Source of the DNA: Apostichopus japonicus
Taxonomy: Eukaryota > Echinodermata > Holothuroidea > Aspidochirotida > Stichopodidae
Assembly: GCF_037975245.1 (NCBI RefSeq)
Contig: NC_092566.1
Coordinates: 8,226,001-8,290,000 of the forward strand
Direction of reading: 5' to 3'
Length of the DNA: 64,000 nt
This document shows, piece after piece, positions 1 to 63,910 of the stretch. How positions within the stretch are numbered: the first letter of the stretch is position 1; the number at the start of each line of letters is the position of its first letter. The position numbers were made by a program, and so were the translations under genes. The notes beneath the pieces are model-generated. The model was not told where the DNA came from. It worked only from the letters and a program-made list of their open reading frames with translations, and ran no database searches.

Positions 1-33
1 CATTCCTTCTTTTTCCCTCTTTGTTTTTGACAG

Positions 34-175
34 ATCGATGCATGCAGCATCAACCACAGTAGAAGAGGAGAATTCCTCCAATCAGGTCTCTGAGGTAGAT
101 GGAGGGAAGGAAGAGGATGGAGAACAAAATAAAGAATCCAAGAAGAAGAAGGGACCTGGATTTAGAGACCGGAAG
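34..175 (+). CDS. MICU1: MICU1 visible exon 1
   Basis: The acceptor is a T-rich tract ending in GACAG at 33; the donor is GTTTGG at 176, weaker than consensus. The first base completes a codon from an exon outside the window. The exon encodes an acidic low-complexity stretch followed by [12 protein letters not shown], the polybasic patch typical of MICU1. Confidence 0.85.
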
Positions 176-13121: not shown

Positions 13122-13161
<40 letters not shown>

Positions 13162-16100: not shown

Positions 16101-19100
16101 TCACACCTTAGTATAACCAATGAGACGTGAGTATGCTTGAGTTATATATCCATACAAGTACTGTCGGTATTTTGTCAGCAACTTGCAGAGCTGTGTTGAC
16201 AAGAATGAGTGTTTCCTTAATAGAAGAGGTGAGAAGGGAACCAGGATTTTCAACCGCATGAGAAGCCTTCTTGTTTATAATTTCATATGACGTTGCACAG
16301 CTACCTTAGTTTTTTCTTTTGGTCTTTTTCCAAACCACTTTTTATCTTACCATTTATATGTTTGTGAAATGAAGTCGTATCTAAAATGAAAGGGCAAGCA
16401 AAGACATTGCAGAGAGGGACGAAGGTATTGGCTAAAGAGTACGAATGACTTTAGAAAGAAAAAAAAATGAGCTATCCAGATCGAAGAGGGTGGCGATCAG
16501 ACGCGTAGCCAAGGGGGGGGGCGAAGGGGGCAGCCAGTCCCCCAACCTTGAGCATATTTTTTAATTTTGTTTTTAATGTTTTTATGAAAACGCTAGTAAT
16601 TTCAAAAGGGAAAATGCTAAGATGCAACTTACAAGGCGTGGGAAGTGCCATTTCCAGCGATCTGGGGGGCATTTTCAGCCAAAATTTTCTTGTTCGCTTC
16701 GCGCCAACCATGGTGGCGCTACTCTTAGATAGTTTGCAATGCCGTATCTACTGCTCTGATAGTTTGCCTACATTTTCGCCCTTCCCTTGGCAAATTCCTG
16801 GCTATGCGCCTGGTGGCGATCTCTATTTCAACATTCCTAATGAAGGAGGAGAATAATAGAAAGAATCATATTAGAAAGAATCATAATAGACACTTTGAAC
16901 CGCTAGTTCTTATCCAGAGTAGAGTTGACTCTCAGAAATCACAGTTGCACTCTGTTTGGGTTGATAATGACTAATCTTTAACTGTTTTTCTTCTTGTTTC
17001 ATCGCTTTTGTTTCTTTTATAGACACATTCAAGCACGTCGCCAAAATGGTCGGAGGCTCTGATCTCAGCCAGCGAGTCGTAGACGTTATATATTCTTTAT
17101 TCGATGAAAACGGTGAGTTGTGGTGTTAAAGCAAATTTCAGCAGGTTTCCAAAAGAATTTGACAGTAGACGACTTGTAAGCTACTGGGGAGACAGATATT
17201 CAGTTGCAAAGATGAGAACAATATACATGACGGCAAAATATTATTTGTGTCCATGTGTGGAAGGAGGTTGGATAAAAATCTTATTTTGGCGTTGTGAAAT
17301 AGCCAGGGAACTGGCAGCCTTGCCTGGTAATGTTTTGTAAAAACAATGACCCATTTATTGTTTGCAGTGCCCTTCATCAGCTCTCCAGAAATATCCTGGT
17401 TTGAAATTGTTAAAAAAGCATCTAAAGGCAGAGAGGGAGAGAGAGAGATTATAAAGTTCCATTATATAAGTTTGGATTTGATTCCATTCTGGTATTTGTG
17501 ACCTTTTGACATTGTGAACTGTCAAGTAGAGGCAAAGGTGCTTGTTTTTGTTGACTTTGTGAGTGACAATGGTAAGATCACAATCTACATAGACTGCTGA
17601 CTTGATAAAGTTCTTCATACAGTAGGATGAGATGTTTGTATTTTAAAGTCATTACAAATGAACTGATCTGTTGTTATCAGGCCAGTGAAGCAAGATACAA
17701 ACAACCTAGTGAACTTAAAGGGACAGTGTAACACTTCATTGTATTGCTTACATATTATTTATTATTCACCTTGCCATGTGGCCCCGGTTGCAAGGGATGG
17801 ACTTGCATATTAATGCACAAAGATAAGCAGTAAACTGAAAGCCTGACAGTTTGTTTTAATTTTGTTATAATGGATGGTCTTTCTTATCAGGTCAGTAGTG
17901 GTGTAAGTAGCAAATAGTCACTTATCTTAAAGGGGCAGTACCACCTGTCATAATAGTCTTATGTATTATTCAACCTTGTAAATGTGGCCCTTAACTTGAG
18001 TCATGGTCTCAGATTTTACCATATATATCTTACATAACTGAATCTTAAAGCTTTTCAGTCACATCTGATTTGGTTTTGGAGGGAGAGGTGGAAAAACATT
18101 AATTAAGTTAAAGGGACAGTGTCACCCACCATACTCATTTTACATTCTGACTTTTAATAGCACAATTCATAGCATGATGCTTCTCGCTTTTGATTTATGA
18201 CGAATCTTCCACACCTCAAGAAGGTCTGCTAAATTTCAATATTTAAAACATCAGACCATGAACAGAGTACAACTTTGGTAACAAAATGCCTGACATAACT
18301 CCATAACTCTTTTGTCTGTATAATTGGAGTCTAATTGTTAATGATTCAAATCGTTAATCTTGTTTGGATAATTGTTCTTGAGCTCTCTTAATCTTATTAA
18401 TCAATTGTTTCGATGTTTACCCTTCTTCTCTCCCGGTTGTCGAAAAAAATCGTCCGAACAAACACAAACACCGATTTTTGTCTTGCAGCTGTATGTAACC
18501 CTTCCAGACTAAACTTGCTATGTCATATGGTATCAATTTTCTAACTGTGCTGGTGGGGAAAATAACTTATCTTAAATAATTTGTACCGTTTTTAAAAGAA
18601 ACAGGGGAACAGGTTATGTGTGGTGGTATGAGCTGGTCTATGTTTGTTCTTCCCCAACCTTGGTACTCAACCATATCAATTGCCTTTCAAAGGAGCATGT
18701 TCATATGGCATAGATGAAAAGAGCAAACCCTCCCCCCCTCCCTGTGTGTTAAAGTGATATAGGTACGGTTTATTCTGCCCTACCTAGGATGTATGGTGTT
18801 TCCCTTCATGTTACTGATACTGATGTATTTCTGTGAGCCTCATAACCAACACCCCAATCCCTGAAATGACATCTCCAAGCATGTACACATAGAGTAAAGT
18901 ATCCTTGTGGACATTTACAAAGAGAACTGGAGTAGCTTCTCCTATCTGATATGAGGGGGGGGAGAGGGGGGATTCTAGGCAATCTATTAGCCCCTCTTCC
19001 CCCACTTCATCCTCGATGAATCATCGCAAATGATATTCACCAGATTACTGACAATCAAAAAACAAAATTAAGAATCTTCTCTGCTTGCAAATTTTGTTAT

Positions 19101-19886: not shown

Positions 19887-20615
19887 TTGTACGGTACGAG
19901 AGACGGCTTCGACTCTCCTTTACAGCGAAATAGGAACGCGGATATCGCTACGGAAACTGCCCCTCATTTGTAGTGTAAGTTTGAGAGGACGAGGCGTCGG
20001 TGAGATATTGACATTCTCCATTTTTGTCCGCTGTAAATTATCTCTCGGCATAAATCCGATTCCCGAAAGTTTGAGATGCTTTGAGAGTTTGAGAGCAGGA
20101 GGATGGAGATGTCTGTCCCTAATTGGTGAGATCGTGTTACCACCCCATTGGAGCTGTTTACCCTAAGTACCAAGGGCACAGAACCAGTAAGATGCCTGAA
20201 GCCAACCTTGAAATATTTTCCAGCAGTACGTCATTTTTTTGGTCAGAATTTTTTTTTACTTTCCAGAGAACAGCTGATGGTGTGTTGATTTTTGAAATTT
20301 TACAATTCATTGTTTCCCTTACAACCTGTTGTACTTTATTTTCTACTCTCAAAATTAAAAATGACAGTATGTTATAATCGGTGGGAATGAGTGCTATGGA
20401 CTACGGTATATTCTTCTTGACCAAGATGGTGTAGTCAGTTGACAGGCTTTAATACTTACTCGTTGATAGTAAAAACAAACATGTGCCATGAATGTTATAT
20501 GCAACTTAGAATAGGTATTTAAACGTACAGTATGTCTGCTGTGCTAGTGTTGTAGGCCTTTGGGAGGTATTAAAGTCTTGTTGCTTGCTTTTAAATAAAA
20601 AGAAGAAGAGATTTT
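19887..20615 (+). other. MICU1: Probable MICU1 3' UTR with poly(A) signal
   Basis: No open frame continues after the stop. An AATAAA lies at 20594-20599 in an A-rich context followed by GT-rich sequence, and is the first convincing poly(A) signal downstream. Only the signal supports the end point; other sites are possible. Confidence 0.4.
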
Positions 20616-24104: not shown

Positions 24105-24177
24105 CATCCCGTAGCCTAGTGGTTATAGGGTATCCGCATATAAAGCGGGAGGCCCGGGTTCGAGTCCCGGTGGAGGC
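24105..24177 (+). repeat. tRNA-like sequence (SINE head or tRNA relic)
   Basis: Box A TAGCCTAGTGG at 24112-24122 and box B GGTTCGAGTCC at 24157-24167. The anticodon arm pairs TCCGC with GCGGG around loop ATATAAA (would-be anticodon ATA), and the T arm CCGGG/CCCGG pairs perfectly. The acceptor stem (CATCCCG against TGGAGGC) pairs poorly, so it is unlikely to be a functional tRNA. An AT microsatellite begins 50 bp downstream. A reversed box-B-like GGTTTCGAACC lies just upstream at 24077-24087. Confidence 0.65.
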
Positions 24178-32553: not shown

Positions 32554-32924
32554 CGGGGTAGGGGAACGGGGGGTAGGGGAACGGGGGGTAGGGGAACGGG
32601 GGGTAGGGGAACGGGGGGTAGGGGAACGGGGGGTAGGGGTAGGGGAACGGGGTAGGGGAACGGGGTAGGGGAACGGGGGGTTAGGGAACGGGGGGTAGGG
32701 GAACGGGGGTAGGGGAACGGGGGTAGGGAACGGGGGTAGGGGAACGGGGGTAGGGAACGGGGGTAGGGGAACGGGGGTAGGGGAACGGGGGTAGGGGAAC
32801 GGGGGTAGGGGAACGGGGGTAGGGGAACGGGGGTAGGGGAACGGGGGTAGGGGAACGGGGGTAGGGGAACGGGGGTAGGGGAACGGGGGTAGGGGAACGG
32901 GGGTAGGGGAACGGGGGGGGGGGT
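32554..32924 (+). repeat. G-rich minisatellite (GGGGTAGGGGAACG)n
   Basis: About 25 units of 13-16 bp, mostly GGGGGTAGGGGAAC, with a central stretch of shorter variants. Every unit has two runs of four or five G, so the plus strand is strongly G-quadruplex-prone. The Pro-rich minus-strand frames are artefacts. Confidence 0.97.
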
Positions 32925-38509: not shown

Positions 38510-38842
38510 CAAGCAAGCTTTTTCGCGCTGGCAGATCAATATCGACTGCGTTATTAAGAAAATTCGAAGATGTTTATAGTTCACATGTTGTCTATTCAGA
38601 CTTGTTTCACTCTTTAAATAACTGCACAAGGAACAGGGCTCTTGACGACATACCTGCTGAGCAAAAAATGAACTTCATATGACAAAAACTAACATAATTG
38701 TGGCAATTAATGTAACACGGTTCGGTTTGTTTTCTGGATACAAGTTTGGTCTCGTTTGCCGGACGACGAAATGCACAATTATAACGAACTCACTTTTTTT
38801 CTTCTTCTTCACCCCGATATAGATAAAAAAAATATATATAAG

Positions 38843-39053
38843 ATGCCACCCCGTAACACCGACACCGACCCAGTTGAGGACCTCTTGGCTACTGATGAGG
38901 CTGAAACCTCCGTCAGACGGGACGAGAAACCAATTGTCGTCCCCACCAAGATCGTATGGAGGAATTTCTTTTGGCTAGCCCTTCTTCACGTAGGATCAGT
39001 TTATGCCCTGTTTGGCGTCACATGGAAATGCCACTGGTATACACTCATATGGG
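38843..39053 (+). CDS. SCD: Desaturase coding exon 1
   Basis: Starts MPPRNTDTDPVEDLLATDEA, a hydrophilic N-terminus, then the first membrane segment and the CHWYTLIWG turn. Donor GTAAGC; ends in phase 1. The exon probably begins at 38823, leaving 20 bases of 5' UTR after an acceptor. Confidence 0.9.
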
Positions 39054-42000
39054 GTAAGCTTATCAAGAAATAAGTTGTTGTTTGTTAATCAGGGATCATA
39101 CTTAATAGGGGAGGGGAGGTGAGCTTTACACATTCGCTAATGGTTAAGGTTGGACCGGGTGGATGGGGCGAAGGTAAGGAGTGAGGGGGGGGGCGGGAGG
39201 AGCGGTCGTGGGTCGATGTGGATATATACTTGAACCTATACGTATACGATCTTTTGTATGAAATATTAAACTTATCCAGGAATAGGTGGGCAGGGGGGGG
39301 GGGGGTAGAAAAGCGATGGTCAAGTGTGCCTATCTCTCTAACCTGTCATCAATATATACATATACTCTGGTTGGTCAAAACCTAAGTAGTATAAGCACTC
39401 TGGCCAACGACCCGACCCGTTCACCCATATCCGAGTCACCGCCCACTTACTGTGAATCTTTCTGATCATCTTTCAAATTCGGTACATTTAATAGTCTTTC
39501 ATAGCGCCCCCTCCCCTCCCAACCCTTCTCGTCAGTACTAAAGCTGGACTTGGGTTACTACACTGTGCCTCCTTCACACATATACGCGATGCCCCGTCGT
39601 CTGCGCCCATCCATATGTAGCTAATGAACTATAGAAGGAAACGAACATCACACTGCCTATTTAGTCGTCGTTATACCCCCGCTCCAACTTTTCTTCATCA
39701 TAGGCTTATGACCTCATTTGATCTCTCTGATGTATGTGATGCTTGAACGGCAAGAATCAGAAACTCCCCAACTTTCTCATTACAAAACTTGTAAAACCAA
39801 GTATACGAACGTACCGCTCCGTATATATATACCAAATACAGAATAGTGCGAAATTAATTAAGGTGTCGCCTCAAGTGCAGTATTTTCATGTGCACATTTT
39901 CTCGCCTTGGAAAGGTTGGACGGTCTCAGTCGCTGACTTGCTGTCCAGCGAACTGTTATATATTGGTTCCGTAGTGCCTGGCTAACTCCCTACGGGCATA
40001 TGTAGGCCCATGGAGGTAAAAACAGATGGTAGGCCCTACGTTCTTCGAGAAAGTCTGCGCTCCCTGACAGATCGAAATAACCAAACAGATCCAAACACTT
40101 CCCAACTGTTAATATAGCATCATATAGTACAGAGGGATTGCGCACATGTTATATCATACTATGTATGTCTAATGTCTAAATGTCTAGGTCTAATGTCTGT
40201 GTCTAACCATACTAATGTATGTCGTCCAGTTACAGAGTTGTTGACAATTGACAATTCATAATCATGGACGTTAAATATATGATTGCAGGGGCGGATCCAG
40301 GGGGGGGCCCGGGGGGCCCGGGCCCCCCTTTTTGAAAATCCTGATTTTTTTTTTTTTTTTTTTTTTTTTTACCGCGTTCGAGGGAAAGTGCCCCATGCGT
40401 GATTAGTGGCGTAGCTACGGGGGGCCTGAAATTGCAGACATGAGATCCATATTTTCAGGCTAGGTACATGCTGCTTAGAATACTCGGGAAGTGCCGTTTC
40501 CGGCCATCTGGGGGGTTTGTAAAGCCCAAAATTTTCTTGTACGCTCCGCGCCAACCGATGATGGCGCTCCGCTTAGATAGTCTTACGTTCAGGCTCAGCT
40601 GGACCAGTCAGACCCCCCCCCCCTGTCACAAATCCTGCATCCGCCCCTGATATGTCATTGAATATTCCACAAAACAACTTTTTATGTCCACGAAACTGTC
40701 GAAACATGATTTTCACTACTGGTAGAGATATAAAATATTGGGAGTTCTGAATTTCCTGCAAACATGCGGCTGTGCCTGTTCAATACTCACTACTGTATCG
40801 CCTTAAAAAATGATGAGTGGAAATAGTTTCTCCAGGACCGTATCGTATCGTGGGTATCGAGTGCGTCTGATATACGAACGTACACATTCCGGTATAAGAG
40901 TGAATTTCCACTCCATTGGAGTAAATCTTAACTCCTAATAGAGTTATATTCACTCATATTAGGAGTGAGGGTTAACTCCAATAGAGTTAAATTTTACTCT
41001 TAATTTGAAGTGCGCCGAGTGATCACTCCAATGGAATGAAATCCACTCATTTGTTTTTAGAGTGTTGCTAGATATATGAAGAAGAAATTTACATACCAAT
41101 ACATGTTATCGGTCATCGATTGGCACAAAAAGCCAGATTCTGATGACAGCTGCCTCAAGAAACCCAATAAATGGCCTAATAAGCACCGAGCCATCAATGT
41201 GGACCATTACCGAAACATCGATGCGTGTTAGTCTTCCACCCCCTTCCTCTAATGCTATTTAAGTCCACATGTGGGCATATCCTGCAAATCTACCGGTAGC
41301 CCACAGGGGTTTGAGTTGGGAGAAAGGCCTTGACAGCTTGAAACGACAAACGATGCCAACTTCCCTCAAGTTAAAAGTCTGGCTGAGTTGGCAAGGCCAG
41401 TCAGCATGAAAGAGAAAAAACTTTTTTTGCATTTCTGTCACCAAACTTGCACATCTTTTTGGTTGCTATTTTGCCTCACAGGTGCCATCTCCTGCGATCT
41501 GGGGGTGCTGAAATCTCAAATTTTCTCTGTACGCTCCGCGCCAACCAAGGTGGCGCTCCGCTTAGATAGTAAACTCCGCCCCCCCCCCACAAGAAAGAAC
41601 AGCCCCCCATGGCCCCCTCACTCAAAAAATCCTAGCTACGCCACTGTGCGTGTAATTTTTTGTAAAATAAATTTGCAAAAAGAGTACACCATCATTCTGA
41701 TAAAGTGAAGGTGAGAGGGGCACTCTGACTGCATCAATAGTCTCCATCTGGAAGGGGGCATCCAAGATGAAATGGCCTGGAGTAGCCTGGTAAAAAGTAG
41801 TTTGCATCACCACCTACTCCCCAAAGACGTAAATCCCAGCTCATTGCTCGAAATTGCAAATATATGCCGGCAAACCATGAATACATGATTTATTGGAAAT
41901 AAATTTTACTCCAAACTTTCACCAAAAGTAGCACCAGATTGCACCGAGGACCTCCATATTTTGTGAAATTTTCCCAAAGGGGAGGGGGGCACCCACTCCC

Positions 42001-43819
42001 CTTAGACCCCTCCCCCAGGACGACGATTAGGCATTTCCCATTTGGGCCCCCCCTTCGGCGAAATCCTGGATCCGCCACTGGATTGTAAGAGACTGACTTC
42101 GGTCAGCTTGCGGCTTTGATAAGCCAATGAGTCTTCTTCGCGAGTTCCTGCTTGCAGGAGGATCTAAAATACATACATACATACATACACACATACACCC
42201 ATACATACTATCGTTATTGAGCTAAATGCTATACATGTAGGTTAAAACAACATACTGGAACCCGCAATGTAAACCGATGGGTGATATCTTGTTTTAGGCC
42301 ATTATCAAGTGATATCATAGGATCATGATGTTGACTATATTGTAGAATTATCTGTAACTATCAGTATCAAAGGTCGATGATTCAAGCAAATTGTATAGAT
42401 ATGAAGTAGGTTATCTCCATTAGTATTGTTTGATCGTATGTTTGTCCGCATTTTAGTTGTTCTTAACGTTCTGACGTTATTAACTCGTGGCACCAGCAAA
42501 TGATTTGAATAAGCGGCTCCCCATGACGCCTGTTATGTGACTATAAAAGGGTCCCGGCGACACCCGGTTGCATGGGGATCTCTGTATATGCACATGTATA
42601 TAAAGTATACATGAATTTTTCTTTGATATATATATTTTTTTCTCTGCACAGAGGAAAACAATATTTCTACAAAAAGTTGTAATTTGATGAAATTCTAAAA
42701 TACAGAGAACCAGATTCAAAATGCATCAGCTTTTCAGGGATAATCAACCAGATGGTTGTAATAGGGAAATAAAGCTTCTGAAAAAAAAACGTATTTGCCG
42801 TTATGACGTCACAGACCACCGACTGTGATTAGATCAGGATCCAGGGAAGAATTAATGGATTAGACATTCAAAACAGGTCACATTGAAACACTATATATTC
42901 AGTTAGGGACACTAACAGTGAGGATTTTTTTTTATTTTCCACACCAGAAAAGCCCTTTAAAAAAAATGATCATGGAACGCGAAATGAGACTAATAAAAAG
43001 CAGATATTGTTTCTCATTTCACATTACTCGATCTCACGAATTTTCTCTGTTTGTTTCTTTTAGCCCTTATTTTATACATATGGGGAGGACTCGGTGTGAC
43101 AGCTGGTTCTCATCGTCTGTGGGCCCATCGAACTTATCAGGCCAAGTTTCCTCTTCGAGTTTTCTTGGCCCTGGGACAAACGTCAGCCTTCCAGGTAAAG
43201 AAATTTATAATCTCATTTTGGTCCTTCAAGCATGGTAAAGGCCGAGTGTGGTAATATATAAAAGCGTCGTCCATTTTGGATTGGTTTGTTTGTTTGTTTG
43301 TTTATTTCGGATATAACTGTTTACCAAACCTATACCCAGTATCATTGTTCATACCCATAATGAGCATTAATTTAGATCATTCCTTACCTGGTCTAGTAAT
43401 AGGAACAGTGTCGGATATTTACAAACTTACGCTGCTTTAAGGAGGGTGGTATATTGGAGCGTTGAGATGCAAATTGGATACCTGGTAATAATATATCCAA
43501 CTGGGTCCACTTTTTTTAAGTCTTTAATTTCCCTTTTATATGTATATATATATCGCACAGGGCGAATAAGAGCTATTTCTTTTATCACATATTTCCTCGT
43601 GGCCCGGGGCTCCACCAACCCCCCCCCCCCCCCCACTGGCTCCCTCCCTCTCGTCAGACCTGGTGATATATGAGTATCGTTTACTACCAACATCATGTAT
43701 GGCGAAAGTCGGTCAGGGGGATACAGCCCCGGGCCCAGGGTCGATTTGAAAGCCCGGGAAAGTATGGAAGGGGCCCAGGAATATATGGGATATATGAAGA
43801 GTTCAAACTGGGGGATAGT

Positions 43820-43888
<69 letters not shown>

Positions 43889-45172
43889 AACATACCTATA
43901 TACAAACATACATACACACATTTGTTTGCAATTGACCTATTCTACTCGTCCTCATACTTCATTTTTCTTTTCTTTGTATAGAATGATATTTATGAGTGGT
44001 GCCGCGACCACAGGGTCCATCACAAGTTTTCGGAGACGGATGCAGACCCTCATAACGCCAGCCGGGGATTTTTCTTCTCTCATGTCGGATGGTTGCTGGT
44101 CAGAAAACACCCGAATGTGAAAGTTAAGGGGGCCGGAGTTGACGTCAGTGATCTGTTGAAAGACCCAGTGGTCTATCTACAGAACCGGTAGGTTGCTACG
44201 ACAACTTGAAATTTCCTTCTCTATCATTAACGTAACACGTCTTATCAGACTGCAATATCAATCATGAACGTTAGGATTCTTATTTATTATTTACCATTAT
44301 ATCTAGCACACAAAACGCGCTAGTATGTTTCTAAAGGGTATAGATATCAACTAAATGCTTTGACTGACACAGAGAGACATTGAAAGTGAGGGGGGAAAAC
44401 GCAGCCGACAGAAAATCTTTTACTGTCTTTACTTATACTTCCTTCCAAGATTAACAGTTTGGTTTGATATGTACCGTAGCGAGGCAGGCAAGCATAACTC
44501 GCATAATGCGCGAGGTCAGGAGGGAAAGGTACACGTGTGATTTGCATCTTCTCTCCTTGTTGTATACTGTCCCATAATATCTATCGCCATGGAAATAGGC
44601 TACACGTGGTCTCTCGGAGATAATCCAGAGGCATAAATACCCAATCTGTCTCTAAACTTGATGAAATCGATTAATTTCTGTGTGTATATATTTTCCTGAG
44701 ATAATAAATAATATTTCTCGCTTTTCTTACCTTTCAACGCAGCTATTATATTCCCTTGATGTTTCTCCTCTGTTTCATCGTACCGACTGCTGTCCCAGTC
44801 TTCTTCTGGGGTGAGAGCGCATGGAACGCTTTCTACGTGGCTGGCTTGCTCCGTTACTGTCTAATCTTAAACGCGACATGGCTTGTCAATAGCGTAGCTC
44901 ATATTTGGGGTATGCACCCGTACGACGACCAGATTAACCCATCGGAGAACCCCCTGGTATCTACCTTTGCACTCGGAGAGGGTTGGCATAATTACCACCA
45001 CGCATTTCCCAGCGATTACCGTACGGGGGAATTCGGTTGGCGGATAAATTTAACCACCATGTTCATCGATGTTATGGCGTTTGTAGGGCAAGCGTACGAC
45101 AGGAAGCTGGTTTCAACTGATATCGTGTTGAAACGAGCTAAAAGAACTGGCGATGGGAGTCGTTTTAAGTGA
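38843..45172 (+). CDS. SCD: Acyl-CoA delta-9 desaturase (stearoyl-CoA desaturase type), complete
   Basis: An ER-membrane diiron enzyme that puts a cis double bond at C9 of palmitoyl- or stearoyl-CoA using cytochrome b5 and oxygen. Four exons (211, 131, 206, 430 bp) join in phase to 325 residues; human SCD is 359, the difference being a shorter N-terminus. Three histidine boxes are intact: HRLWAH in exon 2, HRVHHK in exon 3, HNYHH in exon 4; the accessory His in NSVAHIWG is present. Hydrophobic segments flank box 1 (NFFWLALLHVGSVYALFGV; YIWGGLGVTAG) and precede box 3 (IPLMFLLCFIVPTAVPVFFW). The start at 38843 was chosen because a strong acceptor (pyrimidine tract plus GATATAG at 38822) lies just upstream; the upstream in-frame ATG at 38756 would fall inside that intron. 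The E-box/CRE pair and nuclear-receptor-type sites around the gene are candidate regulators. Confidence 0.93.
39054..40280 (+). other. Desaturase intron 1, 5' part
   Basis: Contains G-rich runs near 39187 and 39293-39306. No coding or RNA feature was recognised. From about 40205 it carries the left half of a SINE-like element. Confidence 0.5.
40205..40285 (+). repeat. SINE-like element, left half (split by a hAT insertion)
   Basis: GTCGTCCAGTTACAGAGTTG and CATAATCATGGACGTT match the element at 50050-50296. The homology stops exactly where the hAT-type element begins and resumes at 42081. Confidence 0.85.
40404..41646. mobile_element. hAT-type element nested in the 40286-42080 element
   Basis: Ends TAGTGGCGTAGCTA and TAGCTACGCCACTG match at 13 of 14 positions. 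Flanks TGCGTGAT (40396-40403) and TGCGTGTA (41647-41654) agree at 6 of 8. It contains two copies of the CTCCGCGCCAACC...GTGGCGCTCCGC segment (about 40540 and 41540), which suggests internal duplication or a further insertion. Confidence 0.75.
40913..41063. repeat. Foldback cluster of ACTCC/GGAGT palindromes
   Basis: About 150 bp with at least five short hairpins such as ACTCCATTGGAGT, AACTCCAATAGAGTT and ACTCCTAATAGAGT. The outer 25 bp of each end are also imperfect inverted repeats (GAGTGAATTTCCACTCC against its near complement ending CATCCACTC-like), so the whole segment can fold back. It lies inside the nested hAT element. Confidence 0.75.
42081..42205 (+). repeat. SINE-like element, right half, and CATA microsatellite
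   Basis: AAGAGACTGACTTCGGTCAG, TTTGATAAGCCAATGA and CTTCGCGAGTTCCT match 50210-50296 and end in a (CATA)n tail. This continues the half at 40205-40285. Confidence 0.85.
43064..43194 (+). CDS. SCD: Desaturase coding exon 2, histidine box 1
   Basis: Acceptor TTTCTTTTAG, donor GTAAAG. It encodes ALILYIWGGLGVTAGSHRLW, AHRTYQAKFPLRVFLALGQT and SAFQ, containing HRLWAH and the conserved AHRTYKA-like motif. Confidence 0.95.
43822..43883. repeat. (AT)n microsatellite
   Basis: About 31 uninterrupted AT units in desaturase intron 2. Confidence 0.98.
43982..44187 (+). CDS. SCD: Desaturase coding exon 3, histidine box 2
   Basis: Acceptor TTTGTATAG, donor GTAGGT. It encodes NDIYEWCRDHRVHHKFSETD, ADPHNASRGFFFSHVGWLLV and RKHPNVK..., including HRVHHK and the FFFSHVGWL motif. 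It ends in phase 2. Confidence 0.95.
44743..45172 (+). CDS. SCD: Desaturase coding exon 4, histidine box 3 and stop
   Basis: Acceptor TTCAACGCAG. It encodes two hydrophobic helices, NATWLVNSVAHIWG, GEGWHNYHHAFPSDYR and the C-terminal tail to TGA at 45170-45172. Confidence 0.95.
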
Positions 45173-52701: not shown

Positions 52702-52917
52702 TTAGGAACAATCTTTCCTTCTACTTCTTTTGCCACCAGCAGGGTCCTGAGTTGATGACTTAACTTTTTGCTTGTCTACTTTTCTCTTCTTAGGCGCTTT
52801 CTGATTGGTCAAGGCTCCATGACCGACCTGTTGACATCCAACCATTGAGGAGATATCATCATCTGCAGTCAAATCCTCGCCGCCGATGTCAGTCAATCTC
52901 GAAGGTTCCCCTTCATC
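52702..52917 (-). CDS. NCOA4-like last coding exon
   Basis: Acceptor CACTTTTTCAG. It encodes DEGEPSRLTDIGGEDLTADD, then the basic C-terminus with PKKRKVDKQKVK and GGKRSRRKDCS before the stop at 52702-52704. Confidence 0.8.
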   Translation of the reverse strand, partial: DEGEPSRLTDIGGEDLTADDDISSMVGCQQVGHGALTNQKAPKKRKVDKQKVKSSTQDPAGGKRSRRKDCS

Positions 52918-55900
52918 CTGAAAAAGTGACAATTTATTGGAGAAAAGATATTTATATTTACAGTCATCTTTAATGAACTTCAGGCTGCCAAAAATTTCAT
53001 CTTTATGGGTCATTCCATAGTTAGGGGGGGGGGTTCATTGATTGATGGACCTTTGGGATACCTTTGTCTGTGTATTACAACAGCAGCTTCTATTTAAAGG
53101 TAACAGACTGTGCATTGCAATGTATCAGAACGTAACAGATAACTTCCTTCTAGAAGAACGATCAATTTTTTAATCATAACTTTTTTAATCATAACAAGAA
53201 CAACTGTCAAACTTATTTAACACAGTGAAAAAATGTAAAACAAGAAAGCTACAAAGCAGGTATCCAAATAATTATAGACCACTCATGGGCAATTTTTTTA
53301 TCAAGAATCAGGGTGGCAAACCCTTTTTACTCTTTTATTTAACAACAATATATTGATTTTCAATTTTAAGATACTGTATAAAGATCAGGTTTCATGTAAC
53401 AGTGTGGAATGCTTATTCAGCAATGGATGGGTGTGTGTGGGGGAGGGGGGGGGGTGCAGCTGATTGCAATTTGGTTACTGGAAGTATCTCAGAATGCCAA
53501 ATTGTTGTAAGGTTTCTTGGGCATAAAATGCTGAAGTTTGATTGGTCTGATACTTCATGAGTAGAAGAACATTATGCATGTTCTTATTCTTTGAAGAAAG
53601 AGGGTTCAACCTCTCTAGCTGTGGCCCTAAAAGATCCTACCCAGCTGTAATCTGTCAGGGCAGACAAATATAACCCATATCTTAAAGAGGAAAATATATT
53701 CTACACTGTTGGTTGTAAAACACAATTCTCAATATCTGCTCAATAATTTGGTTAATTGTGAAAAGTGACCACTTTTGACTCTTTCTTCACAAAGTTGATC
53801 ATAGTTAGTGGTGTCTGATGTCATCATGGTAGGTTTTCTCCATCGGCTTCACTTTTAGTATTGTAATCTTTCTGTCGATTAATCCTTCAGATGTGAGAAA
53901 TTTGGATAAAACGGAATAAGGATGATGCTTTGAACCACTAATGCAGAAACATTTCCACAAATTTTTGTTAAAGCGATCATATTCAGCCCATCAGAATATC
54001 CCTTTAATTCAAAATAAACAGTTTCTTGTTTTACACCAATACCACCAAGTATGTTTGTCACTCATGGACATGCACGTTTGAAACCGAGAAATACTGGATC
54101 ATTAAAAGCTCACTAGACATCTGAAGATAGCTTTAATAATTTGTGAGAAGCTCTAAACAAAGTCATGAATGTTTTTTTTTCTCTGACATCACATAAATAT
54201 GTCGAGTTATGATTCTATGGAATAGCGGATGGATCTGCAACCTACAGTTGACCTTGCTTAATACTTTACTTGAATCAGGGCAAAAGAGGTATTCTGGCTT
54301 TCTTTGTATGAGGCTGAAAAAGTTTTTCACCAAGTTAGGGAATAAGAACTACTGTTCTCTCCAGTGTTGGTACCAAACAGAAAACTAAAGTCATCAAATG
54401 TAGCCAGCTGTTTTACTATACAGATGAACATTTTATTCAACAACAATAATATTAGACAAGAGTCACAAGATGGTATATATCCACATCTTCCGAGATTTGA
54501 AACTACCTTTTCGTGGCAGTAATTATATATTAATTGTTATCTTCAGAAGGACAACTAATTCAACTACTAGAAAGATTTTTTTTTCACTCACCATCACTTG
54601 TTCATTACTGATTGTCTCTGATACTTCATCACATCTTTCTTCTTGAAAACTAAAGCTGGTTTCTTGTCTATAAATTTAGAAGAACACAAATTTGTTTGGT
54701 TAGATCAGTAAATCTGATGTAAAAGGAAACATTGGTTTCCATTACAAACTTCTCTGGTATCTTTATGGTCAGCAAAAATTTTTGCAGGGTTGGGGGAAAG
54801 AACAAACATTCAGAAGAAATAAGAAATTGCCAATATTCGTGGGAAAAAAGTGGATAAATCTTGTACATACAATTACTTCAAAAGTTGAAAATATAACAAT
54901 ACTCAATTGCAACCATTATAAAGCACCGGAAAATTTCTCAAAGTGGAGGAGGGATACCACAGACCAGTTTTCCCTGGGCCACAAAATCTTCCACTGGATC
55001 GTCCCAGGAAAACTGGGGTTACCAAACGCAACAAAACAAAAATTTAATAACAGGGACTTACAGTAACCAGCCCTCCAACGGAGATTCTGAAATAGTATCC
55101 ATGAACTCCAATACATCGCTGTAATCTCTTGTTGATTTTGTCTCGCGTTGTATAGTATTTTGGTTTGAATCAAGGTGAGGTAGCACTGAATCAATATAAC
55201 TACCTGTGAAACAATGTAAAATTGTTGCATAAATTTTTTTTTTTTTAAATTGCACCCTACAAATGTTGCAACTACTAGTCACCAGCTAGATGATTTGACT
55301 TCTTTGGACCTTAACTAACCTTTCACGTCCACCAATAACCATAGGGTACTTGGAGTTGGAGTCCCCAGTAGGAATCAACGCACTGAACATGTAGTTCAAC
55401 CTTCTCCATTTACTTTTTTCACAAGGTATTCACATTCTAATACCTTTTTGAATGTGAAAAGGAAACCCTTTCTTCCATTTCCCAAGTTTTGTTGTCTTAC
55501 CTTTGTTGATTTCATGTGTCATTTCACTTCAAACAAAACTAATAGGGATTTTTTTATCAATGTAGGCCATTAACATATCAGTACATTGAATTTAACCACA
55601 CATTGACTTAACTTCAGTAACTGCATTTAATTGTTGTGAATACATGCAGACACAACTACACACATGCACCATGCTTTTGAGGACTTTAGTAAACCATAAA
55701 ATAATCAAATATTTATCTCAAAGTTACTGTAATGATGATAATGTTCTTTGCCTTATTAAACTGAATAAAACAATCCCCATTCTCATAACCTGTGATAAAA
55801 GATATGTTGAACAAAATAGAAATAATGACACCAACTCAAATTAACTACAATACCAGTACTACTCCTCAGTAGCAAGGCTAATATTATGAACAATATTCTA

Positions 55901-56949
55901 GCAATTTTTTTGGGGGCCTTCTTCACTGTTCTCTGCTAACTAGCTGTTGCTTTCCTAACTATAGTATAGACTGAAATTATATGCCTTCTTAACCATTCTC
56001 TACCAAACTTTGCCCTCCTAACTGCAAAGACTAAATTTCTTTACCTTTCCCAACTGTTCTTAAATATGAACATACCAGTATATTTTGCCAACCATTTTTC
56101 AGGATCTTCATCAGGCAGGTATACCTGAAACTGAAACTTTGTGGAACTTGTGTCTTCTTGAGTCGGCGGTTGGAGGAGCCACTTAGAGATATCTAGATCC
56201 TCAAGGAATGGGGCCATCGACTGCAGAAAATGTACACAAAACAACACTTTCAACTTCAGTAGAATTGCAACGATCTATCTCACTGTCCACTTAAACCTCT
56301 TCACAAAATGTTTTGCCATGGGAATAGTCTGAAGCATTAGAAGTTCAGAAACTATAGGAAAAGGGTATTGAAAACTGTACTATATAAGTAGTTTATATTT
56401 AAGGTATACTGTACACCTAGCCTGATCTGTCAACTGCATTGATCAACAAAGTTACATGAACTTGAGAGAAATGGCATGCAAGCACAAAGTTCTGTTAGTG
56501 TCTCCAACAATAAAAACAAAGAATGTAACAATCACTAGGGCAGTACACACACAAGTTGCAGGTGCTACTTAAACCTGACTGGCAAAAGAGAAGCTTTGTT
56601 GCAGTTTTAGTGTACATAGAATCAATATGTATCCATTAAGAAGACATCATCTCTTATAAGGCAAATCAATCCTGAAGATGAAGCTAAACCAGCATCTTTG
56701 AAAGAATTTGAAAAATTTACTGAATGTTACTGTATATATGATATTATATATGGTATTAAAAAAGCTACTTTATTCAAGAGATAGCCTGGTAAACAGACAG
56801 TGTAAAACCTATCTTAAATGGAATCTACAGAATCACTATTGCCAACCTTGTATCAAACATAAAGATACAGTAGATTAAATAAGCTGTTCGAAATGATTGC
56901 TGAGTAATTTTCTTACCACTTGTCCTGCTTCCTGATGCCTTGATGCCAT
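52702..56949 (-). CDS. NCOA4-like protein with Trp-Leu ferritin-binding motifs, 203 residues
   Basis: Five exons join in phase (33, 145, 142, 76, 216 bp). The start MASRHQEAGQVSM has a strong context (ATACCATGG) and an in-frame TAG seven codons upstream. Three motifs recall NCOA4, the receptor that delivers ferritin to autophagosomes: LDISKWLLQPP, VYLPDEDPEKWLAKY and ISESPLEGWLL. The last keeps the Ile-to-Trp spacing of eight that human NCOA4 uses (Ile489/Trp497, from memory) to bind ferritin heavy chain. The middle is Glu/Ser-rich; the C-terminus is highly basic (PKKRKVDKQKVK, GGKRSRRKDCS), a probable nuclear signal not typical of NCOA4. No N-terminal coiled-coil (ARA70) exon was found up to 64 kb. 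Alternatives: an NCOA4 gene whose 5' exons lie farther away, or an unrelated Trp-Leu motif protein. Gene structure is firmer than identity. Confidence 0.6.
52918..54591 (-). other. Intron between NCOA4-like exons 4 and 5
   Basis: A 1.67-kb AT-rich intron with a G-rich run near 53440-53455. Nothing else was recognised. Confidence 0.5.
54592..54667 (-). CDS. NCOA4-like coding exon 4
   Basis: Acceptor AAATTTATAG, donor GTGAGT. It encodes QETSFSFQEERCDEVSETIS and NEQVM, an acidic linker. Phase 0 at its end. Confidence 0.75.
55062..55203 (-). CDS. NCOA4-like coding exon 3
   Basis: Acceptor TGTTTCACAG, donor GTAAGT. It encodes GSYIDSVLPHLDSNQNT, RDYSDVLEFMDTISESPLEG and WL; it carries the candidate ferritin-binding motif and ends in phase 2. 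Confidence 0.8.
56076..56220 (-). CDS. NCOA4-like coding exon 2
   Basis: Acceptor TTTTCTGCAG, donor GTATGT. It encodes SMAPFLEDLDISKWLLQPPT through VYLPDEDPEKWLAKYT, carrying two Trp-Leu motifs. It ends in phase 1. Confidence 0.8.
56917..56949 (-). CDS. NCOA4-like coding exon 1
   Basis: Encodes MASRHQEAGQV; donor GTAAGA; phase 0. 5' UTR continues upstream, possibly from an acceptor CTCACCAG near 57038. Confidence 0.65.
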
Positions 56950-58032: not shown

Positions 58033-58125
58033 TAGTCACTGATCGTGTAGAGATCGGCTGAGGTTAGTTCCAAGGTGTTTCGACAACAGAGCAGTTGACC
58101 TGTGACGTACTTCCGTTTTCAAGAG
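58033..58125 (+). repeat. GTGTTTCGACAAC element, single copy in the promoter
   Basis: TAGAGATCGGCTGAGGTTAG, TTCCAAGGTGTTTCGACAAC and the following GTTGACCT...ACTTCCGTTTTC recur as an inverted copy at 63815-63910, over about 90 bp. Confidence 0.85.
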
Positions 58126-58170
58126 CCCTCTCTAGTATTGCTATGGCAATGGCGCGAAATGGAAAGTGTA
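58070..58170. promoter_or_regulatory. Candidate core promoter of the NCOA4-like gene
   Basis: Within 100 bp are TGACGTACTTCCG (CRE-like TGACGTA plus an ETS-type CTTCCG), and GGCGCGAAA, the complement of the E2F consensus TTTCGCGCC. Such clusters mark TATA-less housekeeping promoters. It lies 1.1 kb upstream of the NCOA4-like start; direction of firing is not determined, and a tiny plus-strand frame (MAMARNGKCK...) also starts here. Confidence 0.45.
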
Positions 58171-58369
58171 AATTACTTGTACAAGTTGTTGATGACGGCT
58201 ACTCAGGCTGAAGATTAACCCGAAGATGACGGCAACTGGGCAGCATGGGTTTGAAGCCTGGACGTAAAGATTAGACCTAAATGTATTCTATTGACTTGAA
58301 CTTTTAACGTTTGAGAAAATTATATGAGCCAGGCTTTGTTGCAGGTTGTAGCTGCCACAGCTTAGGCCC

Positions 58370-58640
58370 CAAGACGTAGCCTAAGGTACTGTAGGCCTAG
58401 GCCTAACGGCATAACCGTTAGCCTAGTAATGGTTGGTGAATTACTCTGTTGAACAGCTATGTTTAAACGAAATTGGGGGTCGATGGGGGCAGTCATAAAT
58501 TTTGATAAAGATTATATTTCTAGTGGAGGTGCTTATAGGTGTTTTGAAAGGAAGGAAAGTCATTTCTAATAATATCAGGAGGCATGCTAAGGAGTAAGGT
58601 ACACCTAGGCCCCTAGGCCTAGGCCTAGTTACACTTACAC
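58370..58640. repeat. TAGGCC-rich tract
   Basis: Hexamers TAGGCC and CCTAGG recur in both orientations, often overlapping (CCCTAGGCCTAGGCCTAG at about 58612). No gene was recognised. Confidence 0.6.
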
Positions 58641-58726
58641 TACAGGGATAAGCTGAAGATTGTCTTTACCAAAGCTAGAAGTATTTGTAAAATTTTTGCT
58701 GAATTTACTGTTCTTCTTGAGAATCT

Positions 58727-59515
58727 GCGAGGTCCGCGAGACCGAAAGTAAAAAGGTCCGCAACACCGAAGATCTTCGAGACCGAGGTCCGCAAGTCCGA
58801 AACTATTACTAAATACTAGGCCCCGCGAGACCTAAACTACTAGGCCTATAATAGCACTTGGTAAGACAAATCTTACTACCGGTAATATTACCTTGATAAA
58901 GCGTGTAATTTAAAAGAATTTACAGCCATTTCTTTTCATAATGGATGCCAGTGAGTTGCGCAAGGGGGCTGGGGCGGCTTGCATTGATACTAGGCCTCCA
59001 CTAGTGGCGTAACCAGAGGGGGTTGCAGGGGGCAAAAGCCACCGCTCTCAAATGTCTAACCCCCCTGCTGTGTGTTTGTGCTACAAAGTGTACAAATTTT
59101 AGGAAGTAAATTAGACGTTTGGTTTATTATGAGGAAATTGTGTCAACTGTTACAGGCTAGAGGTTAAAAGTTGACCCCTAATTAATCCTGATTTCATAGT
59201 AAAGTGGGATAATAATGACAGTATCCGCTATAACAAGGGAACATGTTGCGGTTTTCAGTTCTACTTCTGTAAGGAGTCAAAATTCTTTAGACTACTCGAA
59301 TTTCAAATAATATTTTTGTAATGTGACAATGTAAAAAAGTGTTTTAAACTGGATTAAATCGCCCGTTTTCCCTTACCTCTTCAGATTTTAAGGGGGGGGG
59401 GGCAGGGACGTCCACCAGTGAAGAATTTACAGTAGGGGGCATGCTCCATAGACCATCGGTCTCACGGACCATCGGTTCTCGGAAATTCGGTCTTGCAGAC
59501 CTTCGGTCTCGTGGA
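58727..59515. repeat. Element bounded by inverted GACCGA-rich arrays
   Basis: 58727-58803 repeats GGTCCGCRAGACCGAA-like units about five times; 59451-59515 has the complementary form (TTCGGTCTCGTGGA, CATCGGTCTCACGGACC). The two arrays are inverted relative to each other, like subterminal repeats of a transposon. A hAT-like end AGTGGCGTAACCAG lies inside at about 58999. Confidence 0.55.
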
Positions 59516-61500
59516 ATTCCCCTGGACGGAGTATGTTGTGTATTGTCAGGACAGGAGGGATACTCGTAATGGAATTGGTGGGTAAGCTTGCACGGTTTTG
59601 TGAAAACTTACAACGGTTTGCCTGAGAAAGTTGTACTTGCAAGAAGTGTGAATGGGTTAAGAATGCTTTGGACAAGCACTTTAAGCATTGTAATCGGGTC
59701 TGAGTGTTTATGTCTTCAGATTTTTCTCTCCTATAGGGTCCTTGGGAATTGAGTGCCCCTCCTGATCCTTATTTTTCTACCAAACTAAACTAATAATAAC
59801 AATAAATACGTTCAGATAGGCACTACGTTAGGTCTACAGAAGTCTGGTAGACCTAGCTAATTTCAGTATTCAAGGTGCCAGTGAGCTGTCAATCTAAGTA
59901 ACTTATTTCTTGGTAATTTGTTTGGCCATAATAAAAGTCTGTTCAGGTGATGCAGAATTTATTCAGCAGGTGGTTCAAGTCCACCAACAGATAAGATTAA
60001 GCCACTGAGTTTCCAAGAAGAATTTGATCATTTGTGCATGTGACTTAATTGCTATAGAAAAAAAGGCTAATCCCATGATAGAAATTTTGTTTGGCAATTT
60101 GGCAAATCAATCAATGAATATTCTGACATTCCTTACAGAGGAGTTTTGTCTGTGAATGTGTGATATAATTTTTTTTGTTCATCTTGGGTCACCATACACT
60201 TGGAAGTGCAATTCCAGTACAAAAAGGTCTCTTAATTTACAGTTAACTTGATACAACATTGTAAAAAAAATTGTGTAAAATTCTTCAACAAAGCATAAGA
60301 CAGTGCCCGCCTTTTTAAACAAGAAAACTGGGAGCTGATGTTGTTAAAGCTCACTACCAGCTGCTTTTGATTGGCAAGAAAACCTTGGCGGAGTGTGTAC
60401 GTTAGGTCTAAAGAAAATTGCAGCAGCTCAGTCCAGCAAACTTGGAAGGATCAAAAACATTGCCCGCTTCAGGAAGGACAAAGAGTGTAGGAACTTCTAA
60501 CAAGCAGATAAAACTCATTTATTTTATATTTCTTTGTTACACATACAATGCAAGAATCATAACATACTTAACAATGTGAAGTTTTTATCTGGTACACAAG
60601 AGGTACAAACAAACCCACTGACAGGAATCTGGGGGTGGGGGCAGGTGCACTCTATAAGGTCTTGTCCCACAGTTTCCCAGACCTTGAGCAAATTTTCAAA
60701 TACACAACTAGAAATACAAATTTCCCAAAGGGGATGGGTGGGGGGAAGCCCTTGTTCCCTCTCCCAGGTTTTCCTCAAAAACCATTACTTGGAAATAAGC
60801 TTACTTAAGCTTCACCATATTATGTATAGGGGCTTAATAAAACCACAATTTTCTCTAATGGACAGAGGCACCTCCCTTATTTTATTCTCACTGGTACCCA
60901 CTTCAGACCCAACATCATGCTTTCACTTGTAGAGCTGCATAATATCTAATTGTGAAGGTAGAAGAGGCCCTGTATTGCCCAGATGAACAAGCATCATGTC
61001 ACATATTCAAGAAACTGATCTAGGCTGGTAGAAGTGTTGTATAGGATCAAGTCACATTGTGACATTTGTAAAACAAATTGCAGTTTTTGCTATATTCATC
61101 GTGAAGTTAGGAACAAGATTATATAAGGAATTATGGAAAGACACTTGAGCATTTTGTCTATAATGAGCTTTGTCCTGACTCCAATCCTCTGAAACATGAC
61201 AGGTGATATTTTCCCACAAACAGAACAATAAGAAACTACATACAGCTGGCACTATGTAAAGGTAGGTTTTCACAATTTGACCAACTCAATCTAGAAGAAA
61301 AAGTGAAGGCATGGCAAAGTGAAGACAACCGAGATTGTTTTTTTTCTTCGCAAGTGCTCAGACAAGCCAAAACAAACAGCTATCTCAGATGTGCAGATCC
61401 ATATGTAAATTTAGTGGTTTTCCATACTGGCGTGCCCTCCCAAAAGTATGATGACTCAGGGGAGAGAAGTTGCAAAGATAACGCAGAAACAAAAGATTAA
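59516..61500. other. Intergenic, no gene recognised
   Basis: AT-rich sequence with a G-rich patch at 60630-60645 and 60733-60745. No supportable coding exon or RNA gene was seen. Confidence 0.4.
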
Positions 61501-61576
61501 CGGTTTACTTGGATAATTTAATAACTTAACTGGAGCAACGGTTTACTTGAATAAATTAACAACTCAACTGGAGCAA
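61501..61576. repeat. Two-copy 38-bp tandem repeat
   Basis: Two units beginning CGGTTTACTTGRATAA and ending CTCAACTGGAGCAA (first unit with one change). Confidence 0.85.
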
Positions 61577-61949
61577 ACTAAATATAAAATATAAAGCATA
61601 ATTTACTTACAAGTCACAAGCTCACTACATATGAATCAAACGTACTCACTCGCTCACAAGTTTTGGCCGGTCAACCATCCGTACTCACCGCCTCATTCAT
61701 AAGCTCTGCCAAACCTTTTCATACACAAGAAAGTTCTATCACACCACACGCACACACTCACACCAGATGCACGCACGCACCACAAACAGCGCGCCGCGCC
61801 CGATACGTTTGAAACCTCTGTTACGTAATTAAACAGCGATGCGTCGCTTACAAGCGCACCATAGCCTAAGGCTACACTATATACATGTACGCCCACACAA
61901 GAATACGCCTATCGTTACAATCGCTCATTTACACATAGAAAGCCCAAAA

Positions 61950-62384
61950 CACAAGGTATTGTCCAAGAAACAGATGATAGGGATGACATGGAAGATGACA
62001 GCTATGACACCAGAGAAAGCACTACTTTCCTGTTCATCCATCAGACCAGCCAGCAACAACTGCTTTTAAAGCGTTATGGAGACATGGTACTCATTGATGC
62101 CACCTACACGACCACAAAATATGCTCTGCCTGTTCTTGGTATTTGTGAGGACCAAGGTTGGTTATAGTCCTGTGGCTGAATTCATCACAGAGAATGAAAC
62201 GACTGTTGCGATAACAGAGGCCCTTGACATCATCAAAGATGGAACCTTGATTGGAACCCCAAGTTCTTCATGCTTGACTATTCCGAACAAGAATACCAAG
62301 CACTGCATGCAGTGTTTCCAGGTACACAGAAGTTTTTATATGCCTTTCACATGGAACAGGCATGGTTGCATTGGAGCAAGGAAA
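61950..62384 (+). pseudogene. MULE/SWIM-type transposase-like relic
   Basis: Three frames in succession encode parts of one MULE-transposase (ZSWIM-like) domain: KRYGDMVLIDATYTTTKYAL, then RTKVGYSPVAEFITENETTV, then MLDYSEQEYQALHAVFPGTQ and FHMEQAWLHW. The conserved IDATY and LDYS aspartates and the FH..QAW motif are recognisable. Single-base losses near 62130 and 62237 shift the frame twice. The relic stops at a GTAAGT donor (62385), suggesting it derived from an intron-bearing or exapted gene. No further domains were found. Confidence 0.8.
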
Positions 62385-62444
62385 GTAAGTTAACTCAAAC
62401 CTACACAAAGTTATTAGTACTTTTCTTTTTAAAAGTTTTTAGCA

Positions 62445-62570
62445 AAGCCACACAGCAAGAGGTTCCTAGTTTGAATCCTGGTCAATGCACCTGTGTTATG
62501 TCCTTATGCAAAGCACTTATTATCTCTCTGCCGACAAAGTTGGTGAAGAGGGGACATAACACTGTTACTG
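62445..62570 (+). repeat. Truncated tRNA-derived SINE
   Basis: Box B-like GTTTGAATCC at 62469-62478, followed by TTATGTCCTTATGCAAAGCA, which parallels TTGTGTCCTTGGGCTAGGCA of the intact SINE at 11957. The 3' body is not recognisable. Confidence 0.5.
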
Positions 62571-63094
62571 TTCATCTGTTTATTTGTCTGTTGGTCCATT
62601 TGTCTCTCTGTATGTTCACACGTTAGCCGTCCTTCTGTATGTAAATCTGTCAGATCAACCTCCACAAAGCGTCTGGAAAAGAAGTAGAGAAAAACAATAG
62701 TGTCAATAGAATAGAGTGGAAATATAATAGACTTTTATAACATTTGATTTGGTTAATAGGTAAGCCCTATTTGGTGTCTATGGGAAAAAAGTTGAGCATG
62801 TTTCTTTTAGGAACTTATGTCAGACTAAAATAAAGGCTAGGTGTGTTGAATTGCAATAGAGTGAGTAAAGGTTGTAATTAAGGTTGGACTGACTAAATGG
62901 TTAGAAGTATATTTGGTAGATCAGTGGATGGCAAAAGGTGGGTGGGGTTAGTAGGTGAATGAATGGAGGTATGTGAATGGTGTTATATGAATTGCGTATG
63001 GTAGATTAATGGGGCACAGTGAGGAATAAAGCATGGGGATTAATGGAGCATGGGAAGTGAATGAATGATGACTTTGTATTGCATTCTGAGGGTT
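62571..63094. other. Intergenic, no gene recognised
   Basis: Low-complexity G-rich sequence with ATGGTG/GAATGG words near 62890-63060. Nothing else was seen. Confidence 0.4.
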
Positions 63095-63560
63095 TCACTG
63101 AGGTTAGTGTCAAGGTGTTTGGACAACACAGCTTGTTGAGGCTAGTTTCAAGGTGTTTCGACAACAATACTTGGTAATGCATTCTGAGGGTTTCACTGCT
63201 CGTTAGTGTCAAGGTGTTTCGACAACACAGCTAGTTGGTCAAGGTGTTTCGATAATGCAGCTAGTTGAGACTAGGTTCAAGGTGTTTCGACAACAAAGAG
63301 ATTAGTGTCAACTTTCAAGGTGTTTCGACAACACAGCTAGTTGAGGCTAGTTTGAAGGTGTTTGACAACAAAACTTGGTGTTGCATTCTGAGGGGTTTCA
63401 CTAAGGTTAGTGTCAATGTGTTTCGACAACACAGCGAGTTGAGGCTAGTTTCAGGGTGTTTCGACAACAAAACTTGGTATTGCATTCTGAGGTTTTCACT
63501 TACCAGGACACAGTGATTCAAACACTTGGAATTCCATGCAGGGTGTTTCGACACCACATC
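63095..63560 (+). repeat. Tandem array of the CAAGGTGTTTCGACAAC element
   Basis: About ten direct copies of CAAGGTGTTTCGACAAC (near 63111, 63149, 63209, 63240, 63279, 63317, 63353, 63413, 63452 and 63539), 31-87 bp apart. They are embedded in longer alternating units GAGGCTAGTTT and GCATTCTGAGGGTTTCACT. Degenerate units continue to about 63700. Confidence 0.9.
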
Positions 63561-63814
63561 ACAGATACAGTGATTCAGACACCTGGTACAGCGCACTGAG
63601 TGTTTCGTGTACCATCTTTACCTAGGGCCTAAATCGGAGGGTTTCGCTTACCTTAGTGATGCAAACAGTTAGTACCGCACACTGAATGTTTCGTTTTCCA
63701 TCATTTGTTGACTTGATTTTATGCATTTCGTTTTAAAAATGCTCTAAAAATAACTAGCATCTTCATCTCTATCCCCAACACATCCCAAAACTCCACAATA
63801 CGATCAGCGAATCT

Positions 63815-63910
63815 GAAACGGAAGTGACGTTAGAGGTCAACTAGCTGTGTTGTCGAAACACCTTGGAACTAACCTCAGCCTGTAGAGATCAGTGGTTGTA
63901 GTATTGTATA
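63815..63910 (-). repeat. Inverted copy of the 58033-58125 promoter element
   Basis: On the minus strand it reads CTGAGGTTAGTTCCAAGGTG, TTTCGACAACACAGCTAGTT and GACCTCTAACGTCACTTCCG, colinear with 58033-58125, including the ETS-type ACTTCCG. Confidence 0.87.

Follow-up and report, generated by a model that had tools for sequence, protein, structure and literature searches.

Architecture of the small gene and its neighbor

The window described here is a stretch of 64,000 nucleotides (nt) from Apostichopus japonicus (contig NC_092566.1, forward-strand positions 8,226,001 to 8,290,000). Toward its end lies a gene of five exons on the minus strand, hereafter the small gene, which encodes a protein with three Trp-Leu motifs. 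Beyond the end of the window, on the plus strand, lies a complete gene for NCOA4 (nuclear receptor coactivator 4, or ARA70), the ferritinophagy receptor. The two genes are arranged head to head on opposite strands, with their start codons 11,260 bases apart, and the small gene is almost certainly a paralog of NCOA4, as judged from its sequence. In window coordinates, it is built as follows:

56949-52702, minus strand, small gene: five exons, 612 nt, 203 amino acids (aa) plus stop, four GT-AG introns
56917..56949, minus strand, exon 1: codes for MASRHQEAGQV, ATG context ACCATGG
56076..56220, minus strand, exon 2: SMAPFLEDLDISKWLL...YLPDEDPEKWLAKYT, two Trp-Leu motifs, entered in phase 0 and left in phase 1, paralogous to NCOA4 exon 4
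55062..55203, minus strand, exon 3: ferritin-docking-like motif DTISESPLEGWLL, entered in phase 1 and left in phase 2, paralogous to NCOA4 exon 5
54592..54667, minus strand, exon 4: no recognized motif, entered in phase 2 and left in phase 0
52702..52917, minus strand, exon 5: tail acidic at first and basic toward its end, APKKRKVDKQKVK...GGKRSRRKDCS, TAA as stop codon
52200..52205, minus strand, AATAAA: putative polyadenylation signal, roughly 0.5 kb 3' of the stop

The original prediction had described a five-exon gene for 203 residues at these coordinates, which proved correct; the minus strand is added here. The three motifs read as it had quoted them, DISKWLL (W25), YLPDEDPEKWL (W54), and ISESPLEGWLL (W105), and its strong-context start agrees with the ATG found in ACCATGG. 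The upstream in-frame stop is a TAG at 56973-56971, just 5' of the ATG. Two acceptor-like sites (57034 and 57007) both lie 5' of this TAG; hence, an untranslated leader is possible, and upstream coding sequence in the frame of the ATG is not. The C terminus is basic, as had been noted, with 13 Lys or Arg residues among the last 40, and its PKKRKV-type tail is what we take to be a putative nuclear signal. Cysteines occur only at positions 119, 160, and 202 and do not cluster. The lack of a coiled coil is likewise borne out, as the protein contains no ARA70 domain (PF12489).

The genome searched comprises 671,581,487 bases in 35 contigs; match counts are lower bounds, with only the best candidates scored. 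The ARA70 family profile gave at least one match (two candidates scored), at C6:8295348-8295467 on the plus strand, 5.3 kb beyond the end of the window. The DNA around it is identical to the window where the two overlap. The gene at this position reads, in window coordinates extended past the end:

68209-68331, 69348-69580, 70491-70698, 71110-71266, 71676-71874, 73035-73140, 74144-74932, plus strand, NCOA4: seven exons, 604 aa

The donor of exon 6 could be either 73095 or 73140. Against human NCOA4, residues 8-570 give 136 bits and an E value of 3e-38 in BLASTP; the human sequence used was confirmed at residues 395-442 and 484-500 by a search of the PDB. The ARA70 domain is present with 33.6 bits against a Pfam cut-off of 23.6, and a block of iron-sulfur (Fe-S) cysteines is identical to the human one at 17 of 20 positions. 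Searching the genome with the 604-aa protein returned eight matches, of which seven are the exons of the gene itself and the eighth has an E value of 0.16, and NCOA4 appears to be single-copy in this genome. NCOA4 orthologs are stated to occur throughout metazoans (PMC4592949); hence, a full NCOA4 neighbor is expected. The same search with the small protein gave four matches, all to its own exons, with only the 11-residue exon 1 unmatched.

Paralogy of the small gene with NCOA4

Between exons 2-3 of the small gene and exons 4-5 of the local NCOA4, the Smith-Waterman score is 69, compared with a shuffle mean of 29.2 (z 7.6; none of 5,000 shuffles reaches 69). Within this region, the 19-mer VLEFMDTISESPLEGWLLQ matches LLEQMDSILQSPHELWLRE of the local NCOA4 with a score of 47, which none of 3,000 shuffles attains, and the two proteins are identical at 10 of 17 positions in the 19-mer region around the motif. 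The intron phases of the small gene (0,1,2,0) recur as the last four in the local NCOA4 (0,2,0,1,2,0); such agreement is estimated to arise by chance in a few per cent of cases and is taken as supporting evidence only. When the two loci are compared at the DNA level, blastn detects no similarity at E 1e-3, which points to an old duplication. At the stop frequency of the gene's own introns (0.0625), 12.7 stops are expected in 203 neutral codons, and the chance of none is 2e-6; over 95 codons, in the frame fixed by homology, it is 0.002. A frame that is open despite old divergence suggests that the gene was retained, although the exon model itself was chosen to be open.

The original prediction had likened the protein to the C-terminal half of NCOA4. 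This does not hold for that half as a block: the small protein resembles the middle, that is, exons 4-5 of the local NCOA4 between the coiled coil and the cysteine cluster. Its docking motif is of the kind located at 484-500 in human NCOA4. Of the proposal that it is either an NCOA4-type or a separate ferritin-binding protein, both the relation to NCOA4 and the separateness of the gene stand, and ferritin binding is weighed below. The relation emerged from the neighboring gene, whereas the Pfam profile search named no family, unrelated or otherwise.

Trp-Leu motifs and the ferritin-docking motif

The Trp motifs were compared with 13 motifs of human NCOA4 as 14-mers anchored on Trp. W54 (QVYLPDEDPEKWLA) scores 41 against human W227 (APYIPSTDPQDWLT), W105 (MDTISESPLEGWLL) scores 34 against human W497 (FQVIKNSPLSEWLI), and W25 scores 34 against human W304. 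Random Trp-Leu motifs of the same composition reach these values against the best of the 13 human motifs with probabilities of 0.00034 (W54), 0.0056 (W105), and 0.0056 (W25), and the chance for W105 against W497 alone is 0.00039.

In human NCOA4, W497 lies within the ferritin-docking site; alanine scanning named W497 and, less so, I489, S492, L494, and L498, and cryo-electron microscopy shows F486, I489, W497, and I499 making hydrophobic contacts and P493 forming a bridge across ferritin R23 (as described in PMC4592949, PMC11076521). All five residues named by alanine scanning are identical in the small protein, as is P493, and I499 is replaced by Leu. A loosened form of the docking pattern is present once among the six frames of the window and five times over 200 mononucleotide-shuffled windows; hence, the pattern alone is about a 1-in-40 event over 64 kb. 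In viral and genome contig collections (non-animal), searches with the small protein yielded 14 and 43 pattern-matching stretches, none of which encodes a relative.

For human W227 and W497, the small protein provides by far the better match, with scores of 41 and 34; the best that the 17 motifs of the local NCOA4 attain is 23 and 22, which is no more than chance (P 0.20 and 0.26). For W204 and W304, the small protein and the local NCOA4 differ little (22 versus 20 and 34 versus 32). The other nine human motifs score higher in the local NCOA4, where more motifs are available, with coiled-coil W69 as the clearest case (51 versus 2, here in favor of NCOA4). In the local NCOA4, the BLASTP counterpart of human 484-500 reads EDTSMPLW and contains no motif. 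The exon-5 motif ILQSPHELWLR, homologous to that of the small gene, keeps I, S, P, W, and L, with L494 replaced by His and I499 by Arg, and scores 17. By these scores, the docking motif of the local NCOA4 is weakened, and the small gene has the closest match in the locus to the human docking motif.

The putative ferritin partner

The genome search for ferritin gave at least three matches, made up of ferritin exons at C7:18.49 Mb plus a single isolated exon on C5. The ferritin on C7 has 173 residues and is identical over all 173 to PDB entry 7vhr, which is A. japonicus ferritin (PMC8886333). Compared with human ferritin, 7 of 11 positions in or beside the NCOA4 cleft are as in human (A19, N22, L27, Y30, R80, V111, and S114), and the remaining four differ (R23K, F82K, K87T, and D90E). 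Concerning the first of these, human ferritin R23A abolishes NCOA4 binding, while R23I and R23L retain part of it in cells and R23L shows none by calorimetry; R23K does not occur in the text reporting the R23 mutants. For the ferritin side, the evidence is mixed.

The isolated ferritin-like exon lies at C5:19691398-19691550 on the minus strand (loci L012, L013; RDDVALSGFHKFLKDMSEKKKENADKLMQKQNKRGGRVTFQDVQ). A motif scan of 20 kb around it at C5:19.69 Mb recognized no partner exon, and it would represent a fragment or a very diverged ferritin.

Proposed function

The small protein probably binds ferritin, and we favor, with similar reserve, the reading of the gene as an old, partial, head-to-head NCOA4 paralog that acts as a ferritin-binding regulator. 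Herein, its segment M94-L107 would lie in the cleft of the ferritin H-type subunit in the manner of human NCOA4 F486-I499. In human cells, the ferritin-NCOA4 condensate requires NCOA4 to self-interact through its N-terminal coiled coil (PMC9452830); having no coiled coil, the small protein should be unable to link ferritin cages into condensates in this manner. HERC2 removes NCOA4 when iron is plentiful, by way of the Fe-S cysteines 404, 410, 416, and 422, which hold a [3Fe-4S] cluster (PMC10831263); having no cysteine cluster, the small protein should escape this iron-dependent turnover. In human cells, NCOA4 383-522 suffices for ferritin degradation without a coiled coil and needs two motifs resembling the LC3-interacting region (LIR) to do so (PMC12872393). 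In the small protein, the first LIR-like motif is absent and the counterpart of the second has Met for Phe, which argues against a degradation receptor; one other canonical pattern, YSDV, occurs at position 87. The protein would thus neither condense, nor be regulated by iron, nor be a strong autophagy tether. It could instead be a constitutive ferritin-binding regulator, either a cap or competitor that restrains ferritinophagy or a nuclear ferritin carrier through its basic tail, and these two specific roles are put forward tentatively.

The small protein resembles NCOA4 in its Trp-Leu motifs and in the docking motif I..SPL..WL, where none of the five alanine-scan residues is changed, and its gene resembles the neighboring one in intron phases and paralogous exons. 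It differs from NCOA4 in having neither an ARA70 coiled coil nor an Fe-S cysteine cluster, in consisting of only 203 aa with three Trp-Leu motifs and a basic tail, and in being encoded in a separate, divergently oriented gene. The experimental human fragment 383-522 is likewise free of a coiled coil and contains the docking motif; unlike the small protein, which has neither in intact form, it contains the cysteine cluster and two LIR-like motifs (PMC12872393).

Several observations weigh against a ferritin-binding regulator. The four cleft substitutions in the local ferritin include R23, where human mutants lose binding wholly or in part, and two docking positions are changed in the small protein itself (S485 to Phe and F486 to Met). 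Against the best of all 13 human motifs, W105 reaches only P 0.0056. Over its whole length, the small protein scores 73 against human NCOA4, which 2 of 2,000 shuffles reach (highest 92), and 75 against the local NCOA4, which 1 of 3,000 shuffles reaches (highest 84). Searches with the 203-aa protein gave no family match in Pfam and no match in the PDB. Two poorer AG acceptor sites within exon 1 (56939 and 56932) would in principle permit an alternative 5' end. Because human 383-522 degrades ferritin alone, the missing coiled coil is by itself no proof of a brake. Finally, the comparison is that of one genome with human.

Alternative explanations

A division of labor between the two neighbors is a possible but rather unlikely alternative. 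The receptor would then be split after the duplication, with NCOA4 keeping self-assembly and Fe-S-based iron sensing next to a weakened docking motif, and the small paralog carrying the vertebrate-like docking motif alone and serving as ferritin adaptor in trans. This is suggested by the better match of the small protein to the human W227 and W497 motifs, and by the missing motif in the local NCOA4 opposite human 484-500. However, the small protein has no coiled coil for contacting NCOA4, and we know of no contact between the two. The residues I, S, P, W, and L retained in exon 5 of the local NCOA4 might also suffice for docking, and here again one species is compared with human.

In a second alternative, the Trp-Leu motifs would bind a partner other than ferritin and the basic tail would set the location of a nuclear co-regulator. 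NCOA4 was originally named as a nuclear receptor coactivator, and both the PKKRKV-type tail and the R23K and F82K exchanges in the local ferritin are in line with such a role. It is nevertheless improbable, as the six identical docking positions are ferritin contacts or alanine-scan residues.

The gene could also be a decaying duplicate without function, that is, a pseudogene or an untranscribed remnant. It is short, is missed by Pfam, and its best local alignment to NCOA4 stops short of exon 5. Yet, having diverged beyond recognition by blastn, it still shows 203 open codons, four consensus introns, intact docking residues, and a strong start context, which makes decay quite improbable.

The reading as an ordinary NCOA4 seen in part, with ARA70 exons upstream in the same transcript, would agree with exon 2 starting at the position that matches where the ARA70-side exons of NCOA4 end, but is refuted unless the contig is misassembled here, given the in-frame stop 5' of the ATG, the only genomic ARA70 match found lying on the opposite strand in a complete NCOA4 with its own start and full exon set, and no further NCOA4 copy found in the genome.

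Significance of a proposed ferritin-binding paralog

NCOA4 unites three jobs, namely gripping ferritin, clustering it, and sensing iron. If the small protein is the ferritin-binding regulator proposed above, a gene encoding only the grip would demonstrate that evolution can separate these jobs, and it would be a natural case in which to ask whether ferritin is protected or delivered when docking occurs in the absence of clustering. An invertebrate ferritin with Lys at the R23 position and a solved structure would furthermore be a case for testing the docking rule. A literature search under likely names found no NCOA4 paralog without ARA70, and none of the titles listed in a further search concerns A. 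japonicus NCOA4; subscription journals were outside the scope of both.

The intergenic transposon and other features of the window

Much of the gap between the small gene and NCOA4 is occupied by an inserted element:

58056-63880, strand not assigned, DNA transposon: 5,825 bp, 37-bp terminal inverted repeats that are 97% complementary
61865-62164, plus strand, transposase-like fragment within the transposon: Pfam ZSWIM1-3 RNaseH-like, E 1.6e-4, 22.1 bits, below the cut-off of 27.2

The transposon is flanked by a perfect 10-bp target-site duplication, TGTAGAGATC, at 58046-58055 and 63881-63890. Subtracting the transposon and one copy of the duplication leaves about 5.4 kb between the two start codons. 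Three minus-strand frames of 56.95-64.0 kb gave no Pfam match, and because 58056-63880 is inserted transposon, the absence of ARA70 within this part of the window is nearly uninformative. The end sequence of the transposon, TCAAGGTGTTTCGACAACA, has several internal copies, which cluster at 63.1-63.5 kb near one end. Between 64.0 and 68.2 kb, six frames gave three Pfam matches, all under their cut-offs; among them is DWORF, matched in two stretches of this gap. Tandem in-frame repeats (WMRGCADAESK...) lie at about 66.6-67.0 kb in extended coordinates.

Elsewhere, the window contains the following features:

5184-5606, plus strand, EF-hand exon within 1-20000: Pfam match; two other open reading frames (ORFs) there have none
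24109-24173, plus strand, tRNA family match: 38.1 bits, shortly before a (TA)38 microsatellite
32555-32917, 26 copies of the 14-bp unit GGGGTAGGGGAACG: plus strand G-rich
38711-45169, plus strand, fatty acid desaturase gene: PF00487 in ORF 44708-45169, ORF 38711-39070 without Pfam match

The desaturase gene is presumably stearoyl-CoA desaturase-like. The EF-hand exon is probably one of several exons of one gene, which we assume to be MICU-like. The match at 24109-24173 may represent a genuine tRNA or a repeat derived from one.

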